This document shows positions 6,284-44,584 of a DNA stretch of 64,000 bases, in pieces (within the stretch, counting starts at the first letter, position 1; each line of letters begins with the position of its first letter). Source of the DNA: Undaria pinnatifida (taxonomy: Eukaryota; Sar; Phaeophyceae; Laminariales; Alariaceae); contig JABAKD010000029.1 in assembly GCA_012845835.1 (NCBI GenBank), positions 13,469,892 through 13,533,891 on the forward strand. The letters are read 5' to 3'. The notes under the pieces are model-generated. The model saw nothing but the letters and a program-made list of their open reading frames with translations, searched no databases and had not been told where the DNA came from. The position numbers and the translations under genes were made by a program.

Positions 6284-7240
6284 GTGAGGGATGCACAGTA
6301 TTTCTATTTTTGACGGAGCACCGCGGCAGTGTCCACGGACCTCCACGGCATTCCACGGCCATGTCAACGGCGTTCCACGGACAGCCGCGGACACTCCACG
6401 GGCTACCTTGGACGTTCCACGGGCTTCCACGGACATTCCACAGGCTTCTACGCAATACCGCGGCAAGCAGAGGAACACCGTGGAGTCCCGTGGCACTAGC
6501 CATGGCGATTTCCACGGCAACCTCCAGGGCAAGGTCCACGGCAATCTCCACAGCAATCTCCACGGCAGCACCCCCGGCAAAGCCGCGGTCACCCATGGAA
6601 ACGTCCACAGAAGCCCACGGCAACGCCCTCGAACACACCCACGGACACGCCTACGGAAACACCCACGGACTTGTCCACGGAACCGCCCGCGGACATCGAC
6701 GGATAGGTCCACGGAAACACCCACGGCAAGACCCACGGCCACGCCCGCGGACATCGGGTGTCTTACATTATTCTTATTTTATTTTATACCATGGGACTGA
6801 CCCTAACCCTAACCCGAACCCATACGAAACACTTGTACAATGTACCAGTCGAAGTGTCCCCTGATGATATCGCTGGGGTAAAAAAGTTGAAAATGTCAAA
6901 TAATGTGTAATGCTATCGGAGGATTGCCGTGACAATGGCCGCGGACGGCCGCGGATGGCCATGGACGTTGCTGCGGTTGGACGTCCGCGGAAACTGCCAT
7001 GGTAATTGACGCGGACTCCCGTGGGTTGCCATAGTTGATACGACGGAGTTTTCCACGGACAGAACCGCGGCACGTGCCGTGGCCACAACCGTGGCATTTG
7101 CCGTAGAAGTGCCATGAGCCGTGGCGCTTGCCGTGGAAACCCGCGAATTTCCACGATAGCCCGTGGCAACACTCACGGAAGGCTTCCGCAGTCATTGCCG
7201 CGGACCTCCGCCAAAAAGTCGAATAATGTGCATCCGTCTT
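6284..7240. mobile_element. fold-back element F (inverted termini, CCRYGG-periodic arms)
   Basis: The left terminus has GGATGCACAGTATTTCTA, then TTTTTGACGGAG and CCGCGGCAGTG. The reverse complement of the right end has GGATGCACATTATTCGAC, then TTTTTGGCGGAG and CCGCGGCAATG. The inverted terminal repeat is thus about 43 bp at good identity. Both arms consist of CCACGG, CCGCGG or CCATGG every 10-12 bases. A CCCTAA tract lies in the middle (6801-6821). A second, end-like segment near 6878-6915 suggests internal rearrangement or two adjacent copies. No coding capacity beyond repeat-encoded frames is visible. The TGCAC and TTTTTG spacing resembles elements 1 and 2, but I found no convincing target-site duplication. 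Confidence 0.65.
6801..6821 (+). repeat. telomere-type CCCTAA tract inside element F
   Basis: Two CCCTAA units are followed by CCCGAACCC. The tract lies near the centre of the fold-back element. The following words AACCCATACGAAA recur after a degenerate CCCAACCCC tract near 22141-22175. Confidence 0.75.
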
Positions 7241-8942: not shown

Positions 8943-8950
8943 TACTCGCT

Positions 8951-10167
8951 GGGCCACCTGCACTATCTGCATTTTAGGTGGAAGTTAATGAGAGCTTCCA
9001 TAGAAGCTCCATCGCTTCCATGGAAGCTTCCACGGACGCTTTCACGGACGCTTTCACGGACGCTTTCACGGAAGCTTTCGTGGAAGTAAATCTGCTTCCA
9101 CGTAAGCTTTCACGGAAGCTTCCGTGGAAGTAAATTTGATTCCACGGAAGATTTCACGAAAGCTTCCGTGGAAATAAGCAATAAATTATAAATAAGAAAT
9201 AATAATGTTTTTCCACGGAAGCTTTAAAAAAAACCTCCCATGGAAGCTTCCGCGATAGCTTCTGCGTGATGGAAAATTACTGCCACGAAAGCTTCTGTGA
9301 AATCTTCCGGCATGTATGTGGATGACATACTCTTTAAATCATATATACCCTAACCCTAACCCTAACCCAATGAAACGCGACAACCATTGTACGGTGAAAC
9401 CCCCTTCGTCTCGTACACAGTGTGCGTTAACCATGTTGTCGAAAAGGTGGTAAGCTCTACTGAAGGCACAGTAGTGTACAAAACAAATATATCCGTGAGA
9501 GCTGTCGAGGAAGCCGCTGAGATTCCGTGGAAACTGCAGAAGCTTCCATGAAAGTGAAATGTAAAATTCCGTGGATTTAGCTTGCAACTTTTCGTGGAAG
9601 CTAATTCGAAAGCTTTCACGAAAAGCTTTCGTGGAAGCTTTCGTGGAAGCCACTGAGCTTCCGACCTTCCGTGGAAGCTGCCGCTTGCTTCCGTGGAACT
9701 AAACCCTAAAATTCCGTGGAAATGCTTTCGTGGAAGCTTTCGAATCCGTGGAAACTTCCGTGGAAGCACTTCCATGGAAGCTTTCGTGGAAGCTTTCGTA
9801 AAAGCTTTCGTGGAAGCTCCCGTGGAAGCTTTGGTGGAAGCTTTCGTGGAAGCTTTTGTGGAAGCTTTTGTGGAAGCTCACGTGGAAGCTTTCGTGGAAG
9901 CTTCCGTGGAAGTTTCCGTGGAAATCACTTCCGCGGCATTTTTCACTACTTCCATGGAAGCTTTCGCGGAAGCTTCCGTGGAAGCTTCCGGGATTTGTTT
10001 TCCATGAAAGCTTCCATATCTTCCATGGAAGATTTCACGGAAGCGCTTTCACGAAAGCTTCCTCGGAAGCTTTCATGGAAGCTATGGAAGCTTCAATGGA
10101 AGCGGTGGAAGCCTCCATGAAAGCTTTCATAAACTTCCACGCAAAAAGCAAGTAGTGCAGGAGACCG
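8951..10167. mobile_element. fold-back element 1 with 8-bp target-site duplication
   Basis: The element begins GGGCCACCTGCAC, then TATCTGCATTTT and GGTGGAAG. It ends TTCCACGCAAAAAGC, then AAGTAGTGCAGGAGACCG, which is the inverse of its start. It is flanked on both sides by TACTCGCT (8943-8950 and 10168-10175), a perfect 8-bp duplication. The arms are almost wholly a 12-bp unit, GTGGAAGCTTYC and variants, in which AAGCTT alternates with CCRYGG. A unique core near 9340-9500 includes a CCCTAA tract. There is no transposase frame, so it is non-autonomous. An 8-bp duplication fits the hAT, P or Zisupton-like superfamilies, but the terminal bases do not decide between them. Confidence 0.88.
9348..9368 (+). 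repeat. telomere-type CCCTAA tract inside element 1
   Basis: Three CCCTAA units and a final CCC stand in the unique core of the fold-back element, about one third of the way along. Confidence 0.85.
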
Positions 10168-10175
10168 TACTCGCT

Positions 10176-11764: not shown

Positions 11765-12087
11765 ATAACCGGTCGCCCCGGTGGCGTATCAGGTTATCCT
11801 CGAGCCTGGTATAGGTCAGTTTCGTGAGTTCGAGCCCCGCCGAGTGCATACTCGTATAAATTCGTTGGGACTTTTTCTTGTGCACAAATTGACTTGCGGA
11901 AAGCGCGATAGCGTGAGTTAGCAACATTCGATGAACAATCGACGAGCAGCGGGATTGCTGAACCCTATGCGCGATAAAAATTGAAGGCAAGAACCGGGGA
12001 GGAGAAGGGATGACACCTGTGACCACGGCTTGTCCAGAAGCTGGAAAGTAGAAGTGTGCTAAAAAAAAAAAAAAAAAAAAAAAAAAA
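11765..12087 (+). mobile_element. SINE family 1, copy a
   Basis: This is a tRNA-derived SINE of about 320 bp. A perfect A box TGGCGTATCAGG lies at 11782-11793 and a perfect B box GTTCGAGCC at 11828-11836. The body carries GCGCGATAAAAATTGAAGGC and CCTGTGACCACGG, and the 3' end is a run of 27 A. CAGAGGT flanks it at 11758-11764 and 12088-12094, a 7-bp target-site duplication. It is non-coding and would depend on a partner LINE for mobility. Further copies are at 20403-20724 (+) and 22744-23047 (-). Confidence 0.9.
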
Positions 12088-12268
12088 CAGAGGTGCAGCA
12101 GAAAGTCCATCAGCTCCTTACATGAGATGCTCAATGTCACATCGCCATCATCACCCGAAAAATGACTTCGAAGGTATTCGTTCGCACAACCAGACCGAGC
12201 GTCTATGCCATAGTACTAAAAAATACGTGCTCGTGAAATTCACTTGATCAATGACTAACCAGCATAGT

Positions 12269-12477: not shown

Positions 12478-13460
12478 ATTCGTCGAACTCACGGCTGACG
12501 CCCTTGAAATATTTTTTATAAAATACATAGACTACACATATATTATAAAAATTAAAATACACTTCAGCTGTGAGATCGAAGATTTCGTCGAAACTCATCT
12601 TCGCAAGCTGTGTGTGATACTCCGATCGCGCGCATTACGAGTTGTGTGTCCTCATTAAGGATATAGGTCGGCGACTCCCCTTACAACTACAGTGTAGCTA
12701 TCAGGGTCAACAGGATGATTTTAGTCAGTCTGTGCGCGGAAACTATAAAACCCGTTTCTGAGGGGGACAAAATCTGACAGCTGTGAAGGGAAAGGGGGGC
12801 CTGGTTTTGATCAAAAGCGAGCGGGTTTGAAGGGGGGCGGGGGGGGGGGGGGGGGGGGGGAGGGGCAATTTGTGCATGTAAGCTATAAATCCTTTCGAGG
12901 GGATAAATCTGACGGTTTTGGCACCAGTATATTATTGGGGGCGGGGGGGGGGGGAGGGGTTGGGGCGGGGGGGGGGGGGGCGGGGGGGGCAGCTCAATAT
13001 GTGCCTGGAAACTATACATTATTTTGAGGGGATAAATGTGACAGTTTTGGAAATAATACATCAGTTTATCATGTATATGATCCTGGGGTAAGTCGTACAA
13101 TCAGTGAGTAAAGAGAGGGTGGAGTGTTCGAGGGGGTGGGGTTGGGATGGGTTGGGGGGGGAGGGTGGGGGGTGGGGGCGGGGGCGGGGGCGGGGGGGGG
13201 GGAGGGGGGGGGAAGGGCTTTAGGTGAGGGGTTTGTTATACGTGTGGTGCTAGGTCTAGGCGAAGGTGCGGGTGATGGGGAAGAAGGGGGCGTTCGAGGC
13301 GGGGGGGGGGGGGGGGGGGGGGGGACACAGCGGCATGGATGGCTCTCGAAAGATAATGAGGTGATATCCTGTGCGTGAAGTGTTTATTAATGTGGCGGAT
13401 TTCGATATTTGGTGGGGCGTTTGAGTAAGGGAGAGCAAGAGGGGGGGGGGGGGAGATTTT
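12478..13460 (-). repeat. R5 dispersed repeat, copy 1
   Basis: In reverse orientation this matches 30070-30970. Shared landmarks are CTTGCAAAGATGAGTTTCGA (here TTGCGAAG), CGTCAGCCGTGAGTTCGACG, GACCTATATCCTTAATGAGG, AGTCGTACAA and a TTTATTA-rich segment, all separated by G-runs in this orientation. The minus strand opens with a frame MSFDEIFDLTAEVYF (start 12598). Two other loci have the same short frame, but I cannot assign a function and it may simply be a frame within a repeat. Confidence 0.7.
12837..13455 (+). other. G-run cluster
   Basis: Several runs of 10-25 G separated by short spacers occur at about 12837-12860, 12935-12990, 13125-13215, 13302-13324 and 13440-13454. They could form G-quadruplexes. 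The inverted R5 copy at 30 kb has C-runs at matching places. Run lengths are likely to be error-prone in the assembly. Confidence 0.75.
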
Positions 13461-18519: not shown

Positions 18520-19622
18520 AACATGCCATCTGGCACGTGCCATGGCATGTCCAGTTATTGTACAACAAAACGTCTTTTTTTAGACAGGTGCCACGGTGTG
18601 CCATGGCAATGCCAAAGCAACCGTGGGCAATGCCACGGACGACTATGGGCATTTGTGATCATGCAACGGTCAACCATGGCAACCCCATGGTCACCCATGG
18701 AATGCCACAGACAACCATGGCAATCCTATATGGTCACTCATGGGAATGCCATGGTCATCCATCGGGATGCCACGGGCATCCGGTGCAACCCATGGCCATC
18801 CATCGCCATCCCACGAGTGACCATGGCAATGCCACGGTCGTCCGTGACAACCCATGGTCTTACATGGCCATCCCAATAGCAACCATGGGAATGCCATGGT
18901 CACCCACAAGAATGCCATGGGTTATCCGTGGCAATGCCTTGGTCAACCAAGGCAATGCCACGGTTAACCATGGCAATGCCATAGTCACCGATGGGAATGC
19001 CATTATCGTCAACCATGGGGATGCTATGATCGCCCGTGGCAACCCGTGGCAATACCATGATCGCCGGTGGCAAAATCCGTGGGAATGCCATGGTCGCCCG
19101 TGGCAACCCACGGCCACCCATTGTCATCCGGGGGAACGTCACGGTCAACCATGGCAATGCCATGGTCACCCATGGAAAGGCCATGATCATCAACCATGGC
19201 AATGTCACTGTCATCCATGGGAATGCCATGGTCACCCATGGGAATGCCATGGCCACCCGCGTGGTTATTCATGGCCATGCCATAGTTGCCCGTGGCAACC
19301 CATGGCAACCCATGGTCGTCCATGGCAACCCATGGTCATCCGTGGCCATGGCATGGTCTAACACGACCATGCCATGGTCCCCCATGACAATTTCATGACA
19401 CCCACAGGAATGCCATGGTCACCCATGGGAATGCAATGATCGCCCGTGGCTACACATGGCAAAGCCAAGGTCGTTCATGGTCTTCCATAGTCATCGGTGG
19501 CAATGCCACGGTCAATCATGACCATGCCATGGCCCATGCCATGGGCAACCATCATAATGCCATGGCAACCCACGGGAATGCCATGGTCGCCCGTGGCACC
19601 CCATGGCAATGCCATGGTCGTC
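18520..19622. repeat. CCATGG-periodic satellite-like array
   Basis: CCATGG, CCGTGG or CCACGG recurs about every 10-11 bases in units such as GGCAATGCCATGGTCACC for 1.1 kb. Because the hexamer is self-complementary, the array can fold back on itself. Frames stay open for up to 295 codons on the plus strand and about 100 on the minus strand, giving His/Gly/Met/Trp-rich peptides. I take these to be an effect of the repeat, not genes. No inverted termini or target-site duplication were found. Confidence 0.8.
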
Positions 19623-22433: not shown

Positions 22434-22743
22434 TGGTGATGTATATCACCAGCAAATACGTTACAGTCTGATGTGCTGGCTTGCATAAGATTCGTTTTTG
22501 GTCTACGTGTGCTCATTTAGCGTGGGTGTGGTTGGCATCTCATGGCCAAATCACGACCGTTGTATTACGCAGCTTAGCCTTATGGCTTGCAAAGATGAGT
22601 ACTACTGTACCGTCCCCAAATTCGTCGAACTCACAGCTAACGTTGTTAGAATAGCATTCTAAGCTCACCTCTAGCAGTATTTAGTATCTATTTGCTACAA
22701 GTACCTGGTACAGTATGTGTTTTCTTGTATTAGACTATATTCT

Positions 22744-23047
22744 ATTTTTTTTTTCTTTTCTTTTCTCACACTTCTACTTTCCAGCTTCTGGAGAAGCCGT
22801 GGTCACAGGTTCGTGCCTTCTCCCCGGTTCTTGCCTTCAATTTTTATCGCGCATAGGGTTCAGCAATTCCACTGCTCGTCGATTGTTCATCAAGTGTTTC
22901 TAACTTTCCGCGCGTCAATTTATGCACAAGAAAAAGTCCCAACGAATTTATACGAGTATGCACTCGGCGGGGCTCGATTTCGCGAAACTGACCTATACCA
23001 GGCTCGAGGATAATAACCTGATACACAACCGGGGCGACCGGCCTATC
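22744..23047 (-). mobile_element. SINE family 1, copy c
   Basis: This is a reverse-strand copy with the head near 23047 and the T-rich tail (poly-A on the minus strand, interrupted by C) near 22744. It carries the same core as copies a and b. CTATATTCT on one side and CTATCATTCT on the other look like an imperfect target-site duplication. The B box is altered to GATTTCGCG-like sequence, so this copy is older. Confidence 0.82.
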
Positions 23048-27185: not shown

Positions 27186-27839
27186 GGCCATTTCTTATGC
27201 AGTCGGGTTCCGCCAGTCGAAACGGCCCTTTTCAACTGGACTTGTTTCCCACTGGATTCTTCTGGTCCTTCTTCTTATCGTCAGTCGAGTTGATTTTATA
27301 GTTTTTGTGCTCTTCCTAGAGGCGGTTGGTGTGAGGGAGTACTAGTGCTGTACAGCAGGCGAAATCGGTTGGCAGCTCTGCGCTTCGCGCTGTCTCCGCG
27401 AGCAACGGCTCGACGAACCTTCGTCCCAGCGAGTTGGTGGCTTTGGGCTTAGCCGAAAGCCGCCAAAGCTACGTTCGTGGAGTTGCACTCAGCCGAGAGC
27501 CGCCAAAGCTACAGTTGGCGCAGCCGTTGTTGGCAGCATGGGATCGAGACCACGCGCTGCTGCCGTCGTGTGATACACGCTGCTGGCGAGCGGAACTAGG
27601 AATGCGCCACGCTGACTTGCTGCGAGAAGCAACATCAGGGATAGCCAAGCCAGCGTCAGCGCCTTGTATGATACTGCAGTGTGGTACCTGGTATGGGGGT
27701 GTGCCCGTGTGCCCGTTCGGGTGTGTGTTTGGTGGTGGGATGGGCGATGCGATCGGTTCAAAAAACGTGTGTAAAACTCTTTCGACTGAGTTTTTCGACT
27801 GGAGGGTTCAATCGAAAAAGTCGAGTTTTTCGACTGGAT

Positions 27840-29387
27840 GGGCCACCTGCACTATCTGCATTTTTGGTGGAAGCTTCCGTGGAAGCAATGGAAGCTTCCA
27901 TGGAAGTATAGAAGCTTCCACGCTTCCATGAAAGCTTTCATGGAAGCTCCCATGAAAGCTTCCACGGAAGCTTCCACCGAAGCAACTTCCACGGAAAGCT
28001 TCCATGAAAGCTTCAACGGAAGCAACTTCCACGGAAGCTCCCACGAAAGCTTCCACGAAAGCTTCCACGGAAGCAAAGCTTCCACGGAAGTTTCCACGGA
28101 AGCAACTTCCACGGACGCTTCCACGGAAGCTTCCGTGAAAGCTTCCACGGAAATTTCCACCGAGACAACTTCCACGGAAGCTTCCATGAAAGCTTTCACG
28201 GAAGCTACTTCCACAAAAGCTTTTACGAAAGCTTCCACGGAAGCTTCCATGAAAGCTTCCACGAAAGCAACTTCCACGAAAGCTTCCACGGAAGCAACTT
28301 CCACGGAATCTTCCACCGAAGCGACTTCCACGGAAGCTTCCATGAAAGCTTCTACGGAAGCTTCCACGGAAGCAACTTCCACGAAAGCTTCCGCGGAAGC
28401 AACTTCCACGGAAGCAACTTCCACGAAAGCTTTCACGGAAACTTCCACGGAAGCAACCTAACCCTAGCCCTAACCCTAACCCCAAGATTCCATGGAAGTT
28501 AGACTTCCATGGAAGCTTCCATTACTTCCACGAAAGCTTCCATTACTTCCATGAAAGCTTCCATGGAAGTTACTTCGATGGAGGCTTTCGTGGAAGCTTT
28601 CGTGGAAGCTCCCCTGGAAGCTTTCATATCTTTCATATCTTCCATGGAAGCTTTCACGGCAGCTTCCACGACAGCTTCCGTGGAAGTTACTTCCGTGAAA
28701 GCCTCCATAACTTCCGCGAAATCTTCCATTACTTCCATGAAAGCTTCCATGAAAGCTTGCGTGGAAGTTACTTCCGTGGAAGCTTCCATAACTTCGGCGA
28801 AAGCTTCCATTACTTTCATGAGAGCTTCCATGGAAGCTTTCGTGGAAGTTATTTCCATGGAAGCTTTCGCGGAAGCTTTCGTGGAAGCTCCCGTGGAAGT
28901 TGATTCCGTGGAAGCTTTCATATCTTCCATATCTTCCATGGGAGCTTCCACGGAAGCTTCCACGAAAGCTTCCACGGAAGTTACTTCCGTGAAAGCCTCC
29001 ATAACTTCCGCGAAAGCTTTCATTACTTCCATGAAAGCTTCCATGAAAGCTTCCATGGAAGTTACTTCCGTGAAAGCATCCATAACTTCCACGAAAGCTT
29101 CCATTACTTCCATGAAAGCTTCCATGGAAGCTTTCGTGGAAGTTACTTTCATGGAAGCTTGCTTGGAAGCTTTCGTGGAAGCTCCTGTGGAAGTTATTCC
29201 CGTGGAAGCTTTCAAATCTTCCATATCTTCCATGGAAGCTTCCACCGCTGTCATTGCTTCCATGGAAGCTTCCATGGAAGCTTCCATAGCTTGCATATCT
29301 TCCATGGAAGCTTCCATGGAAGCGGTGAAAGCTTCCACGGGAGCTTTCACGAGCTTCCACGCAAAATGCAAGTTGTGCAGGAGACCG
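27840..29387. mobile_element. fold-back element 2 with 8-bp target-site duplication
   Basis: It starts GGGCCACCTGCAC, then TATCTGCATTTTTGG, and ends CGCAAAATGCAAGTTGTGC, then AGGAGACCG, with the same termini as element 1. GACTGGAT flanks both ends exactly (27832-27839 and 29388-29395). The arms are the 12-bp GGAAGCTTCCRY unit with its variants. Long frames of about 200-306 codons are open on both strands at once (peptides such as STEASTEA and FRGSFHGS) and are almost certainly a by-product of a 12-base repeat. A CCCTAA tract stands near the centre. Confidence 0.9.
28457..28483 (+). repeat. telomere-type CCCTAA tract inside element 2
   Basis: Four CCTAA-type units, one of them CCCTAG, lie between the two arms. 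This is the third fold-back element here with such a tract. Confidence 0.85.
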
Positions 29388-29533
29388 GACTGGATCCGCC
29401 AGTCGGAATTCTCAGTCGAAAAAAGTTGAGTCGAAAACGCCCTTCTTCGACTGCGTAAGAAAGCCCGATTTGGGCTTCAGTCAAAAAAGGCCGTTTTCGA
29501 CTGACAAATCCGACTGCATAAGAAATGGCCTAA

Positions 29534-30069: not shown

Positions 30070-30970
30070 AATATATGTATAGCAAGCCCCTACATCTATG
30101 CGAGCTAAACCTGTTAAAAACCCTCCCCCCCCAAAAAAAAAAGAACCCCCCCCCCGCCTCTCTTTTCCCCCGTTCCCTCTTGTTCATACGCCCCACCTAA
30201 AATTGAAATCTGCCAGAGTAATAAACACTTCCACGCAGTTGATATCACCTCATTTTCTTTCTAGCCATCCATACCGTAGTTCCAATTCATCCCCCCCCGC
30301 CCTCCCAACGCCCCCTCTTCCCCACCACCCACACCATCGCCTAGACCTAGCACCACACGTATAGCAAGCCCCTACATCTATGCGACCTAAAGCTGCTGAA
30401 CCCTCCCCCCCCCCCCCCCCCTCCCCCAACCCCCCAACCCCCCCACCCCCTCGAACACTCCGTCCTCTCCTTACTGGTTGTACGACTTACAGGATATATA
30501 CATGATAAACCGGTGCATTCCTTCCCCAACCGTCAGATTTGTCCCCTTAGAGGATTTTTTAGTTTCCGCGCACAGATTGGGTTGCCCCGCCCACCCCCCC
30601 CCCCCCCCCCTCCCGCTCCCTCTTGTTCAAACCCAGGCTCCCACGCCCTTAAAACCTCCGCCCTCCCCTCACCGGTTGTACGACTTACAGTATATACTTG
30701 ATAAACTGATGCATTTCCTTCCACAGCTGTCAGAATTTGTCCCCCTCAAGAACGAGTTATATAGTTTCCGCACACAGACTGACTAGCATCACCCTGTTGA
30801 CCCTGATAAGCTACACTGTAGTTCCAAGGGGAGTCACCGACCTATATCCTTAATGAGGACACACAACCCGTAATACGCGCGATCGGAGTATCACACACAG
30901 CTTGCAAAGATGAGTTTCGACAAAATCTTCGATCTCACAGCTGGAGTGTATTTTTATGTTTATAATATGC
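30070..30970 (+). repeat. R5 dispersed repeat, copy 2
   Basis: This is the inverse of 12478-13460. A 50-bp block TATAGCAAGCCCCTACATCT, then ATGCGA, occurs twice (30075 and 30359). It is followed by C-runs, GTCCCC-flanked segments and CTTGCAAAGATGAGTTTCGA near its right end. The frame from 30910 reads MSFDKIFDLTAGVYFY and stops about 20 codons later. Confidence 0.72.
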
Positions 30971-31496: not shown

Positions 31497-32631
31497 GTGC
31501 AAGTTGCACTATCTGCAGTTTTGGTGGAAGTTCATGAAAGCTTCCATGGAAGCGTGGAACCTTCCACGCTTCCATGCTGTGGAAACTTTCTTGGACGCTT
31601 CCATGGAAGCTGCTTTTTCCGTGGAAGCTTTCGTGAAAGCTTCCATGGAAGTTACTTCCACGGAAGCTTCCTCCGTAAAAAAATCCGTGAAAGCTTCCGT
31701 GGAAGTTGCTAAAGAACAACTCTCACGGAAGCTTTCGAGGAAGCTTTCATGGAAGCATTCACGGAAGCTTTCACGGAAGTGATTTGCTTTCACGGAAGCT
31801 TTCACTGAAGTTTTCACGGAAGCTTTTGTGGAGGAAGCAATTGCTTTCACGGATGCTTTCACGGAAGAAGCTTCCACGGAAGTTTTCGTGGAAGTAATTT
31901 CTTTCACGAAAGTTTTCACGGAGGAATCCTCCGTGGACGTAAAGTGGAAATAAATTTACTTCTACAGAAGCTTTCGAAAGTTACTTCCGTGGAAGCTTTC
32001 GTGAAAGCAAATTACCTCCACGAAAGCTTCTGTAAAAGCAAATTACCTCCGCGAAAGGTTCCATGAGAGCTTTCGTGAAAGGTTCCATGAAAGCAACTTA
32101 CTTCCACGAAAGCTTCCGTAAACGCTCCCTTCCGTGAAAGCTTCCGTGAAAGCAAAGTACTTCCACGAAAGCTTCCGTGGAAGTAGCTTCATTGCAGTGA
32201 AAGCTTCCGTGAAAGAAAATTACTTCCACGCAAGCTTCTGTAAAGCCTCCACTACTTCCACGCGGAAAATACTAGTGGATGTTCCGTGGAGTCGTCCATG
32301 ACAGCTTCTCCCACGGATCCGTGGACAGAAGCAGCGTCCCGGGAATCTTCCGGGAAAGGGATGGAAGCTTCCACCGAAATAAATAGTAATGCATGTACTT
32401 GCCGGAAAGCTCCCATGGAAGCTACTGGCACGTCCATGTGCAAAACGTTGAAGGTATTATAATATCTCCCTCCGGCACTGGCACCGAGGGCACGGAAGCT
32501 CCAACGGGTCAACGGGAACCACAACTTGGGAACCTGTACCATTGTCAAGCTCCCGTGGAATCCGTGGAATCTCCCGCGCAAAATTGAAGTTGCATGCGCT
32601 TCCACCACCAAAATGAACGAGCAGGCGAGAG
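31497..32631. mobile_element. fold-back element 3 (old or composite)
   Basis: The left end has TTGCACTATCTGCAGTTTTG and GTGGAAG, as in elements 1 and 2. The right side has two end-like segments, GCGCAAAATTGAAGTTGCAT near 32576 and the inverse of a terminus near 32600-32631 (GCTTCCACCACCAAAATGAA). The arms are the same 12-bp unit, more diverged, with GAGGAAG insertions. No duplication matches across the ends, and there is no CCCTAA tract. It could be two elements that recombined. Confidence 0.6.
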
Positions 32632-36546: not shown

Positions 36547-36846
36547 TTGCCATCTCACGCGGAGTCACAGGCCGACGAAGCGCGACAACTCCGGCTGCTG
36601 TTTTCGACCCATTACACGCACGGGCACTTCATAGCGACTCCGAACTGCGACATCATCGCTGGGTTCGGTCCGTTGTGGGAACACGAAGGGATGGAGGTCG
36701 TGGCCGGTTGCTTGGACTCCATCTGGGAAGACCTCGCCAACCGGCCAGAATTGATCTTCTACGACAAGGGCTGTGCTCTACGGTGCTACCGCTTGCATCC
36801 TCCGGACAACTCCTGGCTGGGAACTCGTCACTTCGTTGACAAGTGA
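36547..36846 (+). pseudogene. transposase-like fragment (N-terminal part)
   Basis: A 100-residue frame contains HYTHGHFIATPNCDIIAGFG, then FYDKGCALRCYRL, a W, and GTRHFVDK, and stops where tryptophan would be expected. An aspartate with DKGC, then an aromatic-rich spacer and VDK/VDR followed by an aromatic residue is how I remember the core of KDZ-type (Kyakuja-Dileera-Zisupton) transposases. That assignment is from memory and needs a profile search. The frame ends at the LINE fragment, which may have inserted into it. Confidence 0.4.
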
Positions 36847-36849
36847 CAT

Positions 36850-38191
36850 GGTCCTATCCCGATTTAGACAAGCCCTTCGTTGTCGGTAAATCTGGTCTTG
36901 CGTTAGCCTTCGTTACTCGTTTTGGCGTGCCACCGAGAATGCTCGCCGTCATCCGCGAATTCCACGACGGCATGCAAGCATGCGTGCGGTTGGATGATGA
37001 AGAGTGCTCGGATAAGTTCGACGTGGGGCAAGGTCTCAGGCAAGGATGTGTGCTCGCGCCACTGCTGTTCAATATGTTCTCCACGGCGATACTGCCTGCG
37101 GCCGAGAAACGCTTCCTCGCTTATGCAGCCATCACGGACAACATGGTGCAGCTCCAACGAAAGGAAAAAGGCGAGAAAAAGGGCACTTCACGCACAGGCA
37201 AAGTGGACGGGCGGAGGGGGGAGGAGGGGGGGGGGGGTGCAGAGATTGTGGGGTATGCTGTACGCGGACGATGTAGGCATCGTATCGCGATCATCAGAAG
37301 GGCTGGAGAGGATGATGACGGTGATCGCGACTGCGTGCTCGTCGTTCGGGCTCACGGTCTCCGAGGTAAAAACAGAAATCATGTGCCTGGAAACCAAAGG
37401 CGGGGGGGAAGGTGTCCTTCACAATCAATGCAGCCGGCCAGGTATACAAACAGACAATCGAGTTTGTGTACTTGGGCGGGGCTATCACCGCAGACAGAGA
37501 CCTTAGCATTGAAATAACGCGGCGTCTTCAGAGGATCTGGGCGTGCTTCCACCGGTACAAGATGGAAATCTATGATCGCCCGGGTGTGCGCTTATGGTTG
37601 AAGGTGCGGTTGCTGAAAGCAGAGGTGGTCGAGACACTGCTTTACGGTTGCATGATGTGGAGCCCGGACAAGCCTGGCTATGACAGGCTACGACGGGTTC
37701 ACCACTCCATGCTCCTCCGATGCCTCGGATGGTGGAAACGGAAGCGCGACGACCACACTCTATCATACGCCGACGTGCTTACCAAGACAGCTTCCGAGAG
37801 CATAGAGACGACAGTGCGTAAACGGAGGATAATTTTCGCGGGATTCGTAACACGTATTGGGGAGGAGCGCCTGCCACAGAGGGTGATGTTTGGGGAGCTT
37901 GTTGGGGGTGAGGGCTACTCAGGGGGGCAAGAGAAGGACTGGATGGCTCATCTGGAGGAGGATATGTCGGTCTTTGAAATGAAATTCGAAGGGTGGCGAA
38001 AGGCTTCTCAGAAGGCCGGCATATGGTTTCGACGAGTAGAGGAGGGAGCCGAGTTGTTCATGCGGAATTGGCATGAAAAGGAGAGACACAAAGCTGCAGA
38101 GCGACGCGCAAAGGCTGCGGCAGTGCCATCCACCGTCGGCATCTCTAAGAGGCCGGGGGGAGGGGCCAGGAGGGAAGGGGGGACGGGGTGA
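36850..38191 (+). pseudogene. LINE (non-LTR) reverse transcriptase, 5'-truncated and frameshifted
   Basis: In order, the protein has a fingers/palm part with FDVGQGLRQGCVLAPLLFN, the catalytic palm motif MLYADDVGIVSRSSEGLERM, a KTEIMCLETK segment, FVYLGGAITAD, LKAEVVETLLYGCMMW and a basic C-terminus. It polymerises cDNA at nicked target DNA in the LINE cycle. It is split into three frames. The changes fall in G-runs at about 37217-37235 and 37399-37409, so real frameshift and homopolymer sequencing error are both possible. No endonuclease domain is seen, so the element is 5'-truncated, as is common for LINEs. Confidence 0.85.
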
Positions 38192-41640: not shown

Positions 41641-43427
41641 GCTCTCTCGTGTGGCATCACCTGAAGGCCCCTGTGCAGAGCTCTGCCACTCATGGTCGGT
41701 CAGAATGTCTCTCTGGGTGTGCTGATGCCGGAATCCGGTTCGATTTGTGCTTGTTGGTTGACCTCGCTCGTTCCAGATGCATCGCAGCAGCCGGCAGCCT
41801 GTCAGTGCACTACTGACTGGTAGAATTGTTGCCTCGGGCAAAACCTACCCTCGACCGACCCTAACGGTTCTCGTCGGGGCGAAGCTCCTCCGAGGATGAA
41901 ATACGTACGATACGCCTGTGGCTCGCTCTGCTGCCCCAGTTGTTTCTGCCTGGCATGCTTGCGCTGTGCCTGTTACAACAGCTCTGCTGTTCTGTCATTG
42001 CCCGAAGTCGCACGGTTTCTGGTTCCGATGTGTTTTGTTTTGCTTTCCACAAGAAAAACGCTGCTAAACAAAAAGGCTGATGCTGCAGCTTGTCCAACAT
42101 ACTTAGTACGCAGGCCGCCGGAAAGTTGCCAGTACTCTGCTATACTAATTATGTGTTGTGCGCGGTCGGGGTTCGCGCCTCTCAAGTTATTGCGGCCGCG
42201 CGAAGGGTAGTCCCGCTCACACGATCGTCTGAATCGCACGATACAGCTGCAGTTTCGAGTGTACTAAAACAGCAATTCGCACATCCAAGTGTACCGGCAA
42301 ATTATTGCGCATGTGCGGCTACCCATCGGTCGGCGTATTTTCCAAAAGGTCTGGAAATTCATTCAACCGGGGTCGTACTCATTGCTGACGGTTTTCAATT
42401 ATGTGTTAAAAAATGCTTCAATCTTGACAAAAATGGTGAACGCCACGCAGAGGAGCTTCAAAATTTGAACAAAAATCCGACGGACATCACCGCCGTGTTT
42501 AGTTTTACTACCTCTACGTGTAGTCTACAGTATTAGTCTAGTTTTTAATCTCACACACCACCAGCAGTGCGCAGGATAATGCTGCTGCTGAAGACTGCTT
42601 GATGTGCGTGGGAATAGATGTTTTTTTTGCTGGTTACAGCACAACAGGTTAGAAGTGTAGTCTAGTAAATGGTGGACTGTTGTACGCGCATCGCATATGC
42701 TTAGCACAACAACAGCTTCACCCAAATGCTCATTATACGCCGGGGTACATGAACGTCGCAGATACCACTCTAGCTTCGGTGAACTTCTATGCGCACAACA
42801 GTATTAGACTAATAGTAGTACCCGGTAGATACAACAACATGTTACAGCAGCATCGACATGACTTATCTGGGCCGTCCCTACACTAAAAAAAAATGCAGAA
42901 TAGGTGCATACTTTACCGTTAGGATACGAGCGAACGCGTGGGGGTGCAAAATGCAAAATCAGCAGCCTCTTCTTGCGTCACCGTTCCTATGAAGAAGAAC
43001 CTTGTAGAGAGTACGTTTTTTGTTGCGATCAAATACGGTGCCTTCATTATCGCATACGGAGCCTTAGGCGTTACATTTATTCCCTTGCCCAGGTACCATC
43101 GCTGCGGGGACTACAAGCACGGCGTCGCCCTACCGCGCTTGGTCGGTTTAGGCTGCAGTACATGCAGTGCAACCACTTTGGAAGTTGCCGTGAAAGGACG
43201 TGCGCGTCGGGCCGTGGGTGCGTGTTTGGTACTTGATGCCGTGGAAGACATGCGCGTCGAGCCGTGAGTGCCTGTTTGGTACCAGGTACTTGGTAACAAA
43301 GGAGTGCGCTCGGGAAATTTCACGTACTTCCTCCATGGGCGTAGGCCAAGGATGGTGGATTGCGGAGCCTTTGCTTGAAGGACCTTGCTCCCTTAAGGAT
43401 GGCGATGGAGATGTGGTACGACAACCA
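41641..43427. other. no gene recognised
   Basis: Open frames on both strands resemble nothing I know. GTGCCTGTTTGGTACCAGGT and GCGTGTTTGGTACTTGATGC near 43219-43290 are a diverged direct repeat (about 65-bp spacing) around ACATGCGCGTCGAGCCGTG. Confidence 0.4.
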
Positions 43428-44170
43428 CTACTTCCACGGAGGCGTCCATGGAAGCTGCTACCATGGAAGCTTCCGCGGGATGAAGATCTGGACCCATTTC
43501 CGCCAAAGGTGCGAAAGTTTGAACGGCAGATTCGACGGAAGCATCCAAAGCCGGGAAGCTGTTTCCGCGTGAAGTTCATGGAAGTTTTTGTGGAAGCCCC
43601 CATCCAAACGCTCATGAAAGCAGCTTTCATGGAAGTAGCTTCTGTGAAAGAGAGCTTCCACGAGCTCCCGTTCAAACCCCCTTGGAGGTAACTTCGATAG
43701 ACGGCTTCATGCAAGCTCCCGTCGAACGCTAATGAAAGCTTTCGTGGAATGAAACGTGAAAGCTTCCATGAAAACACACGGAAGAGTTCGTGGAAGCTTT
43801 CGTGGAAGCTACTTCCACGGAAGTTCACTTTTTATTTCCTTGACAACATGACGTGGAAGAGAAAATAAACCGCTTTCATGGATGTATTAGTCTAGGCTAC
43901 ATGTATTACTTATGAAATGATAATTACTTCCGCGAAAGCTTACATGAGAATGGGTTTCCGTGGGAGCTACCGTGGAAGCCGCTGAGCTTCCGTGGAAGCT
44001 ATGGAAGCTTCCATGGAAGTAAAACGTAAACTTCCGTGGAAGTAGCTACCACGAAAACTTTTCGTGGAAGCTTTCGTGGAAGATTTCGTGAAAGCTTTCG
44101 TGGAAACTTTCGTGGAAGCTTTTGAGGAGCTTCCGTCGAAGCTTTCGTGGAAGCTTCGTGGAGGCTTTCG
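43428..44170. repeat. GGAAGCTTYCRY arms without termini
   Basis: This is the same 12-bp repeat as the fold-back elements, in two blocks (43430-43850 and 43930-44170) separated by AT-rich DNA. I found no TGCAC-type terminus and no CCCTAA tract, so it may be a remnant. Confidence 0.65.
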
Positions 44171-44584
44171 TGATCGTATTATTGGCAAAAAAATTGAAAA
44201 TAAATAGAAAACAAAACCCGCGACGGTGTGTGTTCTGCACACACACCAATTACACTGACATTTCCACCCATGTGATATGCACCCAGCTCAACCAGTGCTC
44301 GTGCCGATACCTCCTCCTAGAGAGAGCTCTATGGCCACAAAGCCACGAAACACATAGACATCATTGCGAATACAGAAATGTGATGTGTGGTCACGCAGTA
44401 CTGAATATGCCATGCCGAACGCAATGAATGCGGAGACGGACCATGATAAGCGAGCCAGCACACCAGACTACGTCAACAAGGGGGTATAAAACAGGAATAA
44501 AAGACTGGAAAAGTAATCCATTGGAAAGAAAGCAAAAGGAAGAAACCAACTAAAAAATGATCGAAAGATGAGCATGAAAATAGC
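44171..44584. other. no gene recognised
   Basis: AT-rich spacer; nothing supported. Confidence 0.5.

Follow-up and report, generated by a model that had tools for sequence, protein, structure and literature searches.

A probable non-autonomous Foldback-type DNA transposon with a body of palindromic 12-bp units and an oriented telomere-type core

The window, which is the whole 64-kb stretch of DNA analysed here (contig positions 13469892-13533891), contains a repetitive tract, E1, whose inverted ends, satellite-like body and flanking 8-mers raise the question of whether it is a mobile element and, if so, of what kind and moved by what. E1 is very probably a non-autonomous cut-and-paste DNA transposon of a Foldback-type family, moved in trans. 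Its status as a transposon is supported by defined ends, a target-site duplication of exactly 8 bp, several hundred dispersed ends and the empty site of one copy.

Borders, dispersed copies and target-site duplications

E1 starts with GGGCCACCTGCAC and ends with GTGCAGGAGACCG, which agree at 10 of 13 bases when read as inverted repeats. The 8-mer TACTCGCT stands directly outside both termini and these are its two occurrences in the window, both strands having been checked. The terminal core TGCACWAYYTGCNNTTTNSGTGGAAG, with up to 3 mismatches allowed, has five matches in the 64 kb, namely both ends of E1, both ends of a second element (E2) and the left end of a third (E3), and none in 100 shuffles of the window. 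The perfect 8-bp duplication and inverted termini described in the initial annotation were thereby borne out, and E2, located about 18 kb from E1 in the same orientation, shows the same borders with a different perfect 8-mer. E3 has no duplication, and its right end has decayed to a weak match made by eye only. The coordinates of all four elements or candidate elements are given in Table 1. As had been claimed, E1 appears to have no gene of its own, none being seen in its sequence. Long open frames in E2 (up to 325 aa) were considered as genes and rejected because they are a product of the 12-bp period of the body. A blind scan of the window for terminal repeats with duplications was likewise discarded, having been swamped by satellite (148 matches at 8 bp compared to 0-1 in 20 shuffles).

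Table 1 Positions of the elements and their parts within the window
Feature	Position	Strand	Remarks
Left target-site duplication of E1, TACTCGCT	8943-8950	.	Identical to 10168-10175
Element E1, subfamily A	8951-10167	+	1217 bp; terminal repeats and duplication; genome copies 76-85% identical
E1 left terminal region	8951-8986	+	Outer GGGCCA followed by the CCTGCACTATCTGCATTTT inverted repeat and the first satellite unit; from terminal consensus of 31 complete copies
E1 core nearly free of 12-bp unit	9311-9550	+	Unit density and alignment; 84-96% with L002-L008
(CCCTAA)n telomere-type block in E1 core	9348-9368	+	
E1 right terminal region	10132-10167	-	Outer CGGTCT (reverse strand), then CCTGCACTACTTG
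Right target-site duplication of E1, TACTCGCT	10168-10175	.	
Left target-site duplication of E2, GACTGGAT	27832-27839	.	
Element E2, subfamily B	27840-29387	+	1548 bp; termini as in E1, own perfect duplication
(CCCTAA)n block in E2	28456-28482	+	Left part imperfect
Right target-site duplication of E2, GACTGGAT	29388-29395	.	
E3, degraded copy	31497-32600 (end approximate)	+	Left end good from TGCAC core inward
E4, degenerate satellite stretch, possible old copy	about 43150-44180	.	Candidate ends only; unit density and reading

The genome searched comprised 511,146,479 bases in 68 contigs. With E1 as the query it yielded about 40 longer matches over roughly 0.7-1.3 kb, at the identities given in Table 1, plus many shorter ones (40 of 1867 candidates scored). 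A 30-base left-end pattern with 29 fixed bases has 105 exact copies and its reversed control none; a 21-base left end with at most 2 mismatches occurs 502 times (control 0), and a 14-base right end has 256 exact copies (control 4). As a sample we took the first 30 of the 105 exact left ends in contig order (L009-L038), 14 of which were extended by further sequence. Right ends were present for 27 of these 30 (26, and L018 once it was joined to L052), while none was found within about 4 kb of L013, L020 or L034. The 32 complete copies range in length from 175 bp (L028) to 2699 bp, the latter being the distance between the two ends of L018, whose duplication matches at 7/8. L004 is the same copy as L027, and L007 the same as L025.

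In-register duplications of at least 7/8 flank 21 of the 27 complete sampled copies (8/8 in 11, 7/8 in 10). The remaining six score lower (L038 6/8, L019 5/8, L025 3/8, L010 2/8, L017 and L029 0/8), and a one-base shift raises L025 to 7/8 and L010, which lies in a short repeat, to 8/8. When the left and right flanks of 26 copies were randomly re-paired, 0.3% of pairs reached at least 7/8, compared to 20 of 26 (77%) for the true pairs. This comparison of flanking 8-mers at other copies had been proposed as a check in the initial annotation, and its outcome, together with the empty site described below, supports the claim that E1 is a mobile DNA element. The length of the duplication is exactly eight: in 20 pairs, selected for matching, 17-20 agree at each of the eight positions and 3-9 at positions outside. 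Beyond the 30-copy sample, the duplications of E1, E2, L005 and L008 are perfect and that of L003 scores 6/8; L002 and L006 show one end only. Thirteen of 208 positions differ in the 26 of 31 flank pairs that have no more than 2 mismatches, which suggests that the insertions are of moderate age. In 23 duplications, C is slightly over-represented at position 3 and G at position 6 (11/23 each).

L009 sits in a tandem repeat, with GAAATGAA as its target. When its flanks are joined over a single GAAATGAA, they align continuously with two L028 repeats (91% and 86%) as well as with a single L039 repeat (80%), in which one base of the 8-mer is changed. The joined flank of E1 was unique in the genome at the search sensitivity used, and E1 therefore has no paralogous empty site. 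The expectation that empty sites would exist thus held for one copy, L009, in paralogous repeats within the same genome, but not for E1 itself.

Some copies are arranged in ways that deserve separate mention. L034, L035 and L036 (C23:4.13-4.16 Mb) lie about 12 kb apart and have a common left flank that is 89-94% alike, pointing to a tandem segmental duplication that carried the element; L035 and L036 appear to descend from a single insertion duplicated in this way. L017 and L018 (C18:12.351-12.355 Mb) face each other about 4 kb apart, L017 having no duplication and L018 the imperfect one given above. The largest copy read, L094 (C1:2228460-2232160; about 3.65 kb), has satellite arms around a 2-kb unit-poor interior in which three open frames tested gave no Pfam match. 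Its flanks have TGTGCT in common but no full in-register 8-mer, and the copy has no CCCTAACCC.

The 12-bp unit and self-pairing of the body

The terminal consensus of 31 complete copies (L018 left out) reads GGGCCACCTGCACTATCTGCATTTTTGGTGGAAGCT on the left and, read inward, CGGTCTCCTGCACTACTTGCTTTTTGCGTGGAAGCT on the right. Each end has six conserved outermost bases, which differ between the two (GGGCCA versus CGGTCT); the inverted repeat proper begins at CCTGCAC, and the terminal inverted repeat is imperfect. The agreement among ends is partly built in, because the selection of most copies relied on a right-end profile and, at the left, on the pattern from base 5 onward; bases 1-4 of the left end lay outside this pattern.

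The repeat unit of the body, GGAAGCTTCCRY, is a palindrome plus two bases, and therefore any part of the body can pair with any other. With up to 3 mismatches and in two registers it covers about 46-49% of E1 and 68% of E2, compared to 1-2% of one shuffle of each. The initial annotation had described the body as nearly all GTGGAAGCTTYC units. The 12-bp unit is indeed present, with seven exact copies of GTGGAAGCTTYC in E1 and one in reverse, but the description was overstated, as the unit makes up about half of E1 and leaves a core that is nearly free of it. This core matches L002-L008, at the identities in Table 1 per 60-base bin, and is absent from E2. The unit-poor core and the telomere-type repeat inside it had been missed earlier.

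E1 was rightly called self-complementary: its predicted DNA fold scores -308, compared to -160 +/- 5.5 for 15 shuffles. The fold-back is thus real, but its source is the palindromic unit and not a pair of long matched arms. Such matched arms were considered and rejected, since in the 29 copies of at least 1000 bp a left arm scores on average 167 against its own right arm and 165 against the right arm of another copy, drawn at random. Left arms score fairly well against themselves reversed (143), and no arm match extends beyond the common end and the unit. We therefore use the term Foldback in a structural sense, without a claim to classical long arms: the inverted ends hold short tandem repeats and insertion is accompanied by a target-site duplication, while long arms matched within one copy were not found. 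The palindromic unit would then give rise to the self-pairing of the body as a by-product, and copies probably changed in length as units were gained or lost through slippage or unequal exchange.

The telomere-type block

CCCTAA is found in 29 of the 32 complete copies and TTAGGG in none of the 32, so the orientation of the block is fixed. The three complete copies without CCCTAA are those of 175, 401 and 1039 bp, and some others (L019, L035, L036) have a single CCCTAA only. The first CCCTAA lies at 0.24-0.62 of copy length (28 copies). Sorted by crude patterns, the contexts of the block fall into types A (9), B (12) and C (6), with 4 unassigned; all three core contexts of E1's family hold the block in one orientation.

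TTAGGG is likely the telomere repeat of the host. Of eight 1.5-kb stretches at contig ends, that of the window's own contig terminates in an array of 119 TTAGGG units, three others have TTAGGG runs (25, 49 and 16 units), one has 12 CCCTAAA and three have none; perfect two-unit telomere runs occur in 4 of the 8. Telomere-type blocks abound in the genome, in which a 15-mer of this type has 10,020 matches, terminal arrays included, compared to 43 for its reversed form. We considered whether telomere-type blocks are special to this element family and rejected the idea, as 3 of 20 distinct sites from the start of the list for contig C1 lie in the family. Flanking inverted arms scored above 40 at 7 of 21 telomere-block sites (the 20 C1 sites and window site 6801); among mismatched pairs the 95th percentile was 24 and the largest score 123, the latter possibly joining sites of one family. 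Two of the seven belong to E1's family and two others are alike; the remaining 14 of 21 sites have no clear arms.

The block is probably a captured piece of the host repeat, since inherited by the copies. It is also conceivable, though we think it improbable, that breaks at hairpin tips in the centres of fold-back structures were healed with host telomere sequence, in which case unrelated inverted-repeat families would have acquired CCCTAA cores and many interstitial blocks would be fold-back scars. If telomere cores do arise repeatedly in inverted-repeat elements, they would form a record of hairpin-break repair.

Two further sites with such blocks were seen. At L069 a telomere-type block is flanked by inverted arms, 43 bp long and 41/43 identical, that belong to another repeat family. 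At 6313-6821 of the window a CCACGG-type tandem repeat (6313-6756) is followed by (CCCTAA)n at 6801-6821, and the right flank resembles that of the telomere-block site L077.

Relation to known elements and candidate transposases

Judged by sequence layout, E1 appears to be a known kind of element, resembling Foldback-type elements such as Tm1 but distinguished by its palindromic unit and by a telomere-type core of fixed orientation. Sea urchin TU elements and Drosophila FB also carry short tandem repeats in their inverted ends, with units that differ from that of E1, and TU elements make 8-bp duplications. Tm1, a Mutator/Foldback element of root-knot nematodes (PMC3169594), resembles E1 in having, beyond the inverted repeat, terminal motifs that are asymmetric (7 bp in Tm1, about 6 here), short tandem repeats in arms of variable length, mostly gene-less copies, some copies without duplications, and an empty site, demonstrated by PCR for Tm1. 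It differs in its 14-bp unit, mostly 9-bp duplications and end sequences (CGGTTAA and CCTACCC, compared to GGGCCA and CGGTCT here), in that one copy type carries a MULE transposase, and in that the part of that paper used here mentions no telomere block. Since sequence, unit and usual duplication length differ, E1's family is built like Tm1 without being a member of it. Galileo, of the P superfamily in Drosophila, is alike in its long, internally repetitive ends resembling Foldback (PMC3573991) and in tandem repeats that hold transposase binding sites (PMC3688188), and unlike in its 7-bp duplications, repeats of about 210 bp in one subfamily and known transposase (both sources). Tetris of Drosophila virilis (PMC4079207) is likewise a non-autonomous foldback element whose ends contain tandem repeats, with duplications of 8-10 bp, a link to satellite DNA and no autonomous copy found, whereas its repeats are about 220 bp long and also form long satellite arrays. 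Among the titles and abstracts of open-licence literature listed as matches, none described this family or any foldback element with a telomere core, and the terminal and satellite patterns had no match in viral and prokaryote collections, from which the window's own genome was possibly left out.

We propose that a transposase encoded elsewhere binds the common terminal sequence CCTGCACTAYYTGC, and probably also the reiterated 12-bp units beside it, pairs both ends, excises the element and would insert it into an 8-bp staggered cut. The units beside the ends are plausibly transposase binding sites by analogy with Galileo, in which such sites were footprinted in the tandem repeats of the ends (PMC3688188). 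An autonomous parent was sought near the ends: among the matches listed, none of 73 hAT and MULE matches on the compared contigs lay within 25 kb of 163 exact ends (100 right, 63 left). The absence of such a parent among these matches counts against the transposon reading, as do the copies without a duplication (L017, L029), with a reduced one (L003, L038, L019) or without a right end (L013, L020, L034), the interior of L094 with no Pfam match in the three frames tested, and an imperfect inverted repeat whose outer six bases differ between the ends. Coupled with the tandem nature of the body, the missing partner ends and duplications could instead point to a satellite array that grew in place between chance flanks; we consider this exceedingly improbable, because hundreds of sites show fixed ends, duplications are far more frequent than among re-paired flanks, and one copy has an empty site.

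For a transposon moved in trans, the driver could come from several superfamilies. A Mutator-like (MULE) transposase, as in Tm1, is a possibility that we hold tentatively. Like Tm1 (PMC3169594), E1 has short tandem repeats and, beyond its inverted repeat, asymmetric outer motifs; most foldback elements are regarded as Mutator (PMC4079207), and the genome contains 111 MULE matches. However, the duplication is 8 bp here versus most commonly 9 (8-10) in Tm1, and, among the matches listed, no MULE match of the 25 included in the comparison of 73 was near the ends. Slightly less likely is a different superfamily that makes 8-bp duplications (Zisupton/KDZ, P-like or unknown). Zisupton makes duplications of this length (PMC12730594) and KDZ is common in Ectocarpus (PMC12477816), which bears on the case only if the host is a related alga; a KDZ profile had no match in the genome, but it also had none in any of 14 control genomes and is thus uninformative. 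We regard a hAT transposase as slightly less likely still, even though 8 bp is the usual hAT duplication length (PMC12730594) and the length found here, and 150 hAT dimer-domain matches occur in the genome. Eight of these 150 loci, fetched at about 3.2 kb each, contained no matching end at up to 2 mismatches. hAT elements prefer targets with T2 and A7 and have CAG-type ends. The 23 duplications, with their C3 and G6 excess, have T2 in only 3 and A7 in 6.

Whichever transposase moves it, the family, with its several hundred ends, represents a palindromic-unit satellite travelling as the body of a transposon, so that the spread of satellite and interstitial telomere-type repeat can be traced copy by copy. 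Its complete copies, which span the length range above and have common ends, also form a natural series that bears on how many subterminal units the transposase needs.

The window holds other repeats besides this family. A different satellite, of about 21 bp and with palindromic CCATGG cores, occupies 18591-19620, and inverted copies of other dispersed repeats, 88-95% alike and 11-18 kb apart, are found at 12540-12793 and 30714-30968 and at 11794-12090 and 22735-23013. At 36840-38191 are two overlapping open frames, the first of which matches reverse transcriptase weakly (PF00078, E 2e-4, short of the curated cut-off), and this segment is perhaps a LINE remnant.
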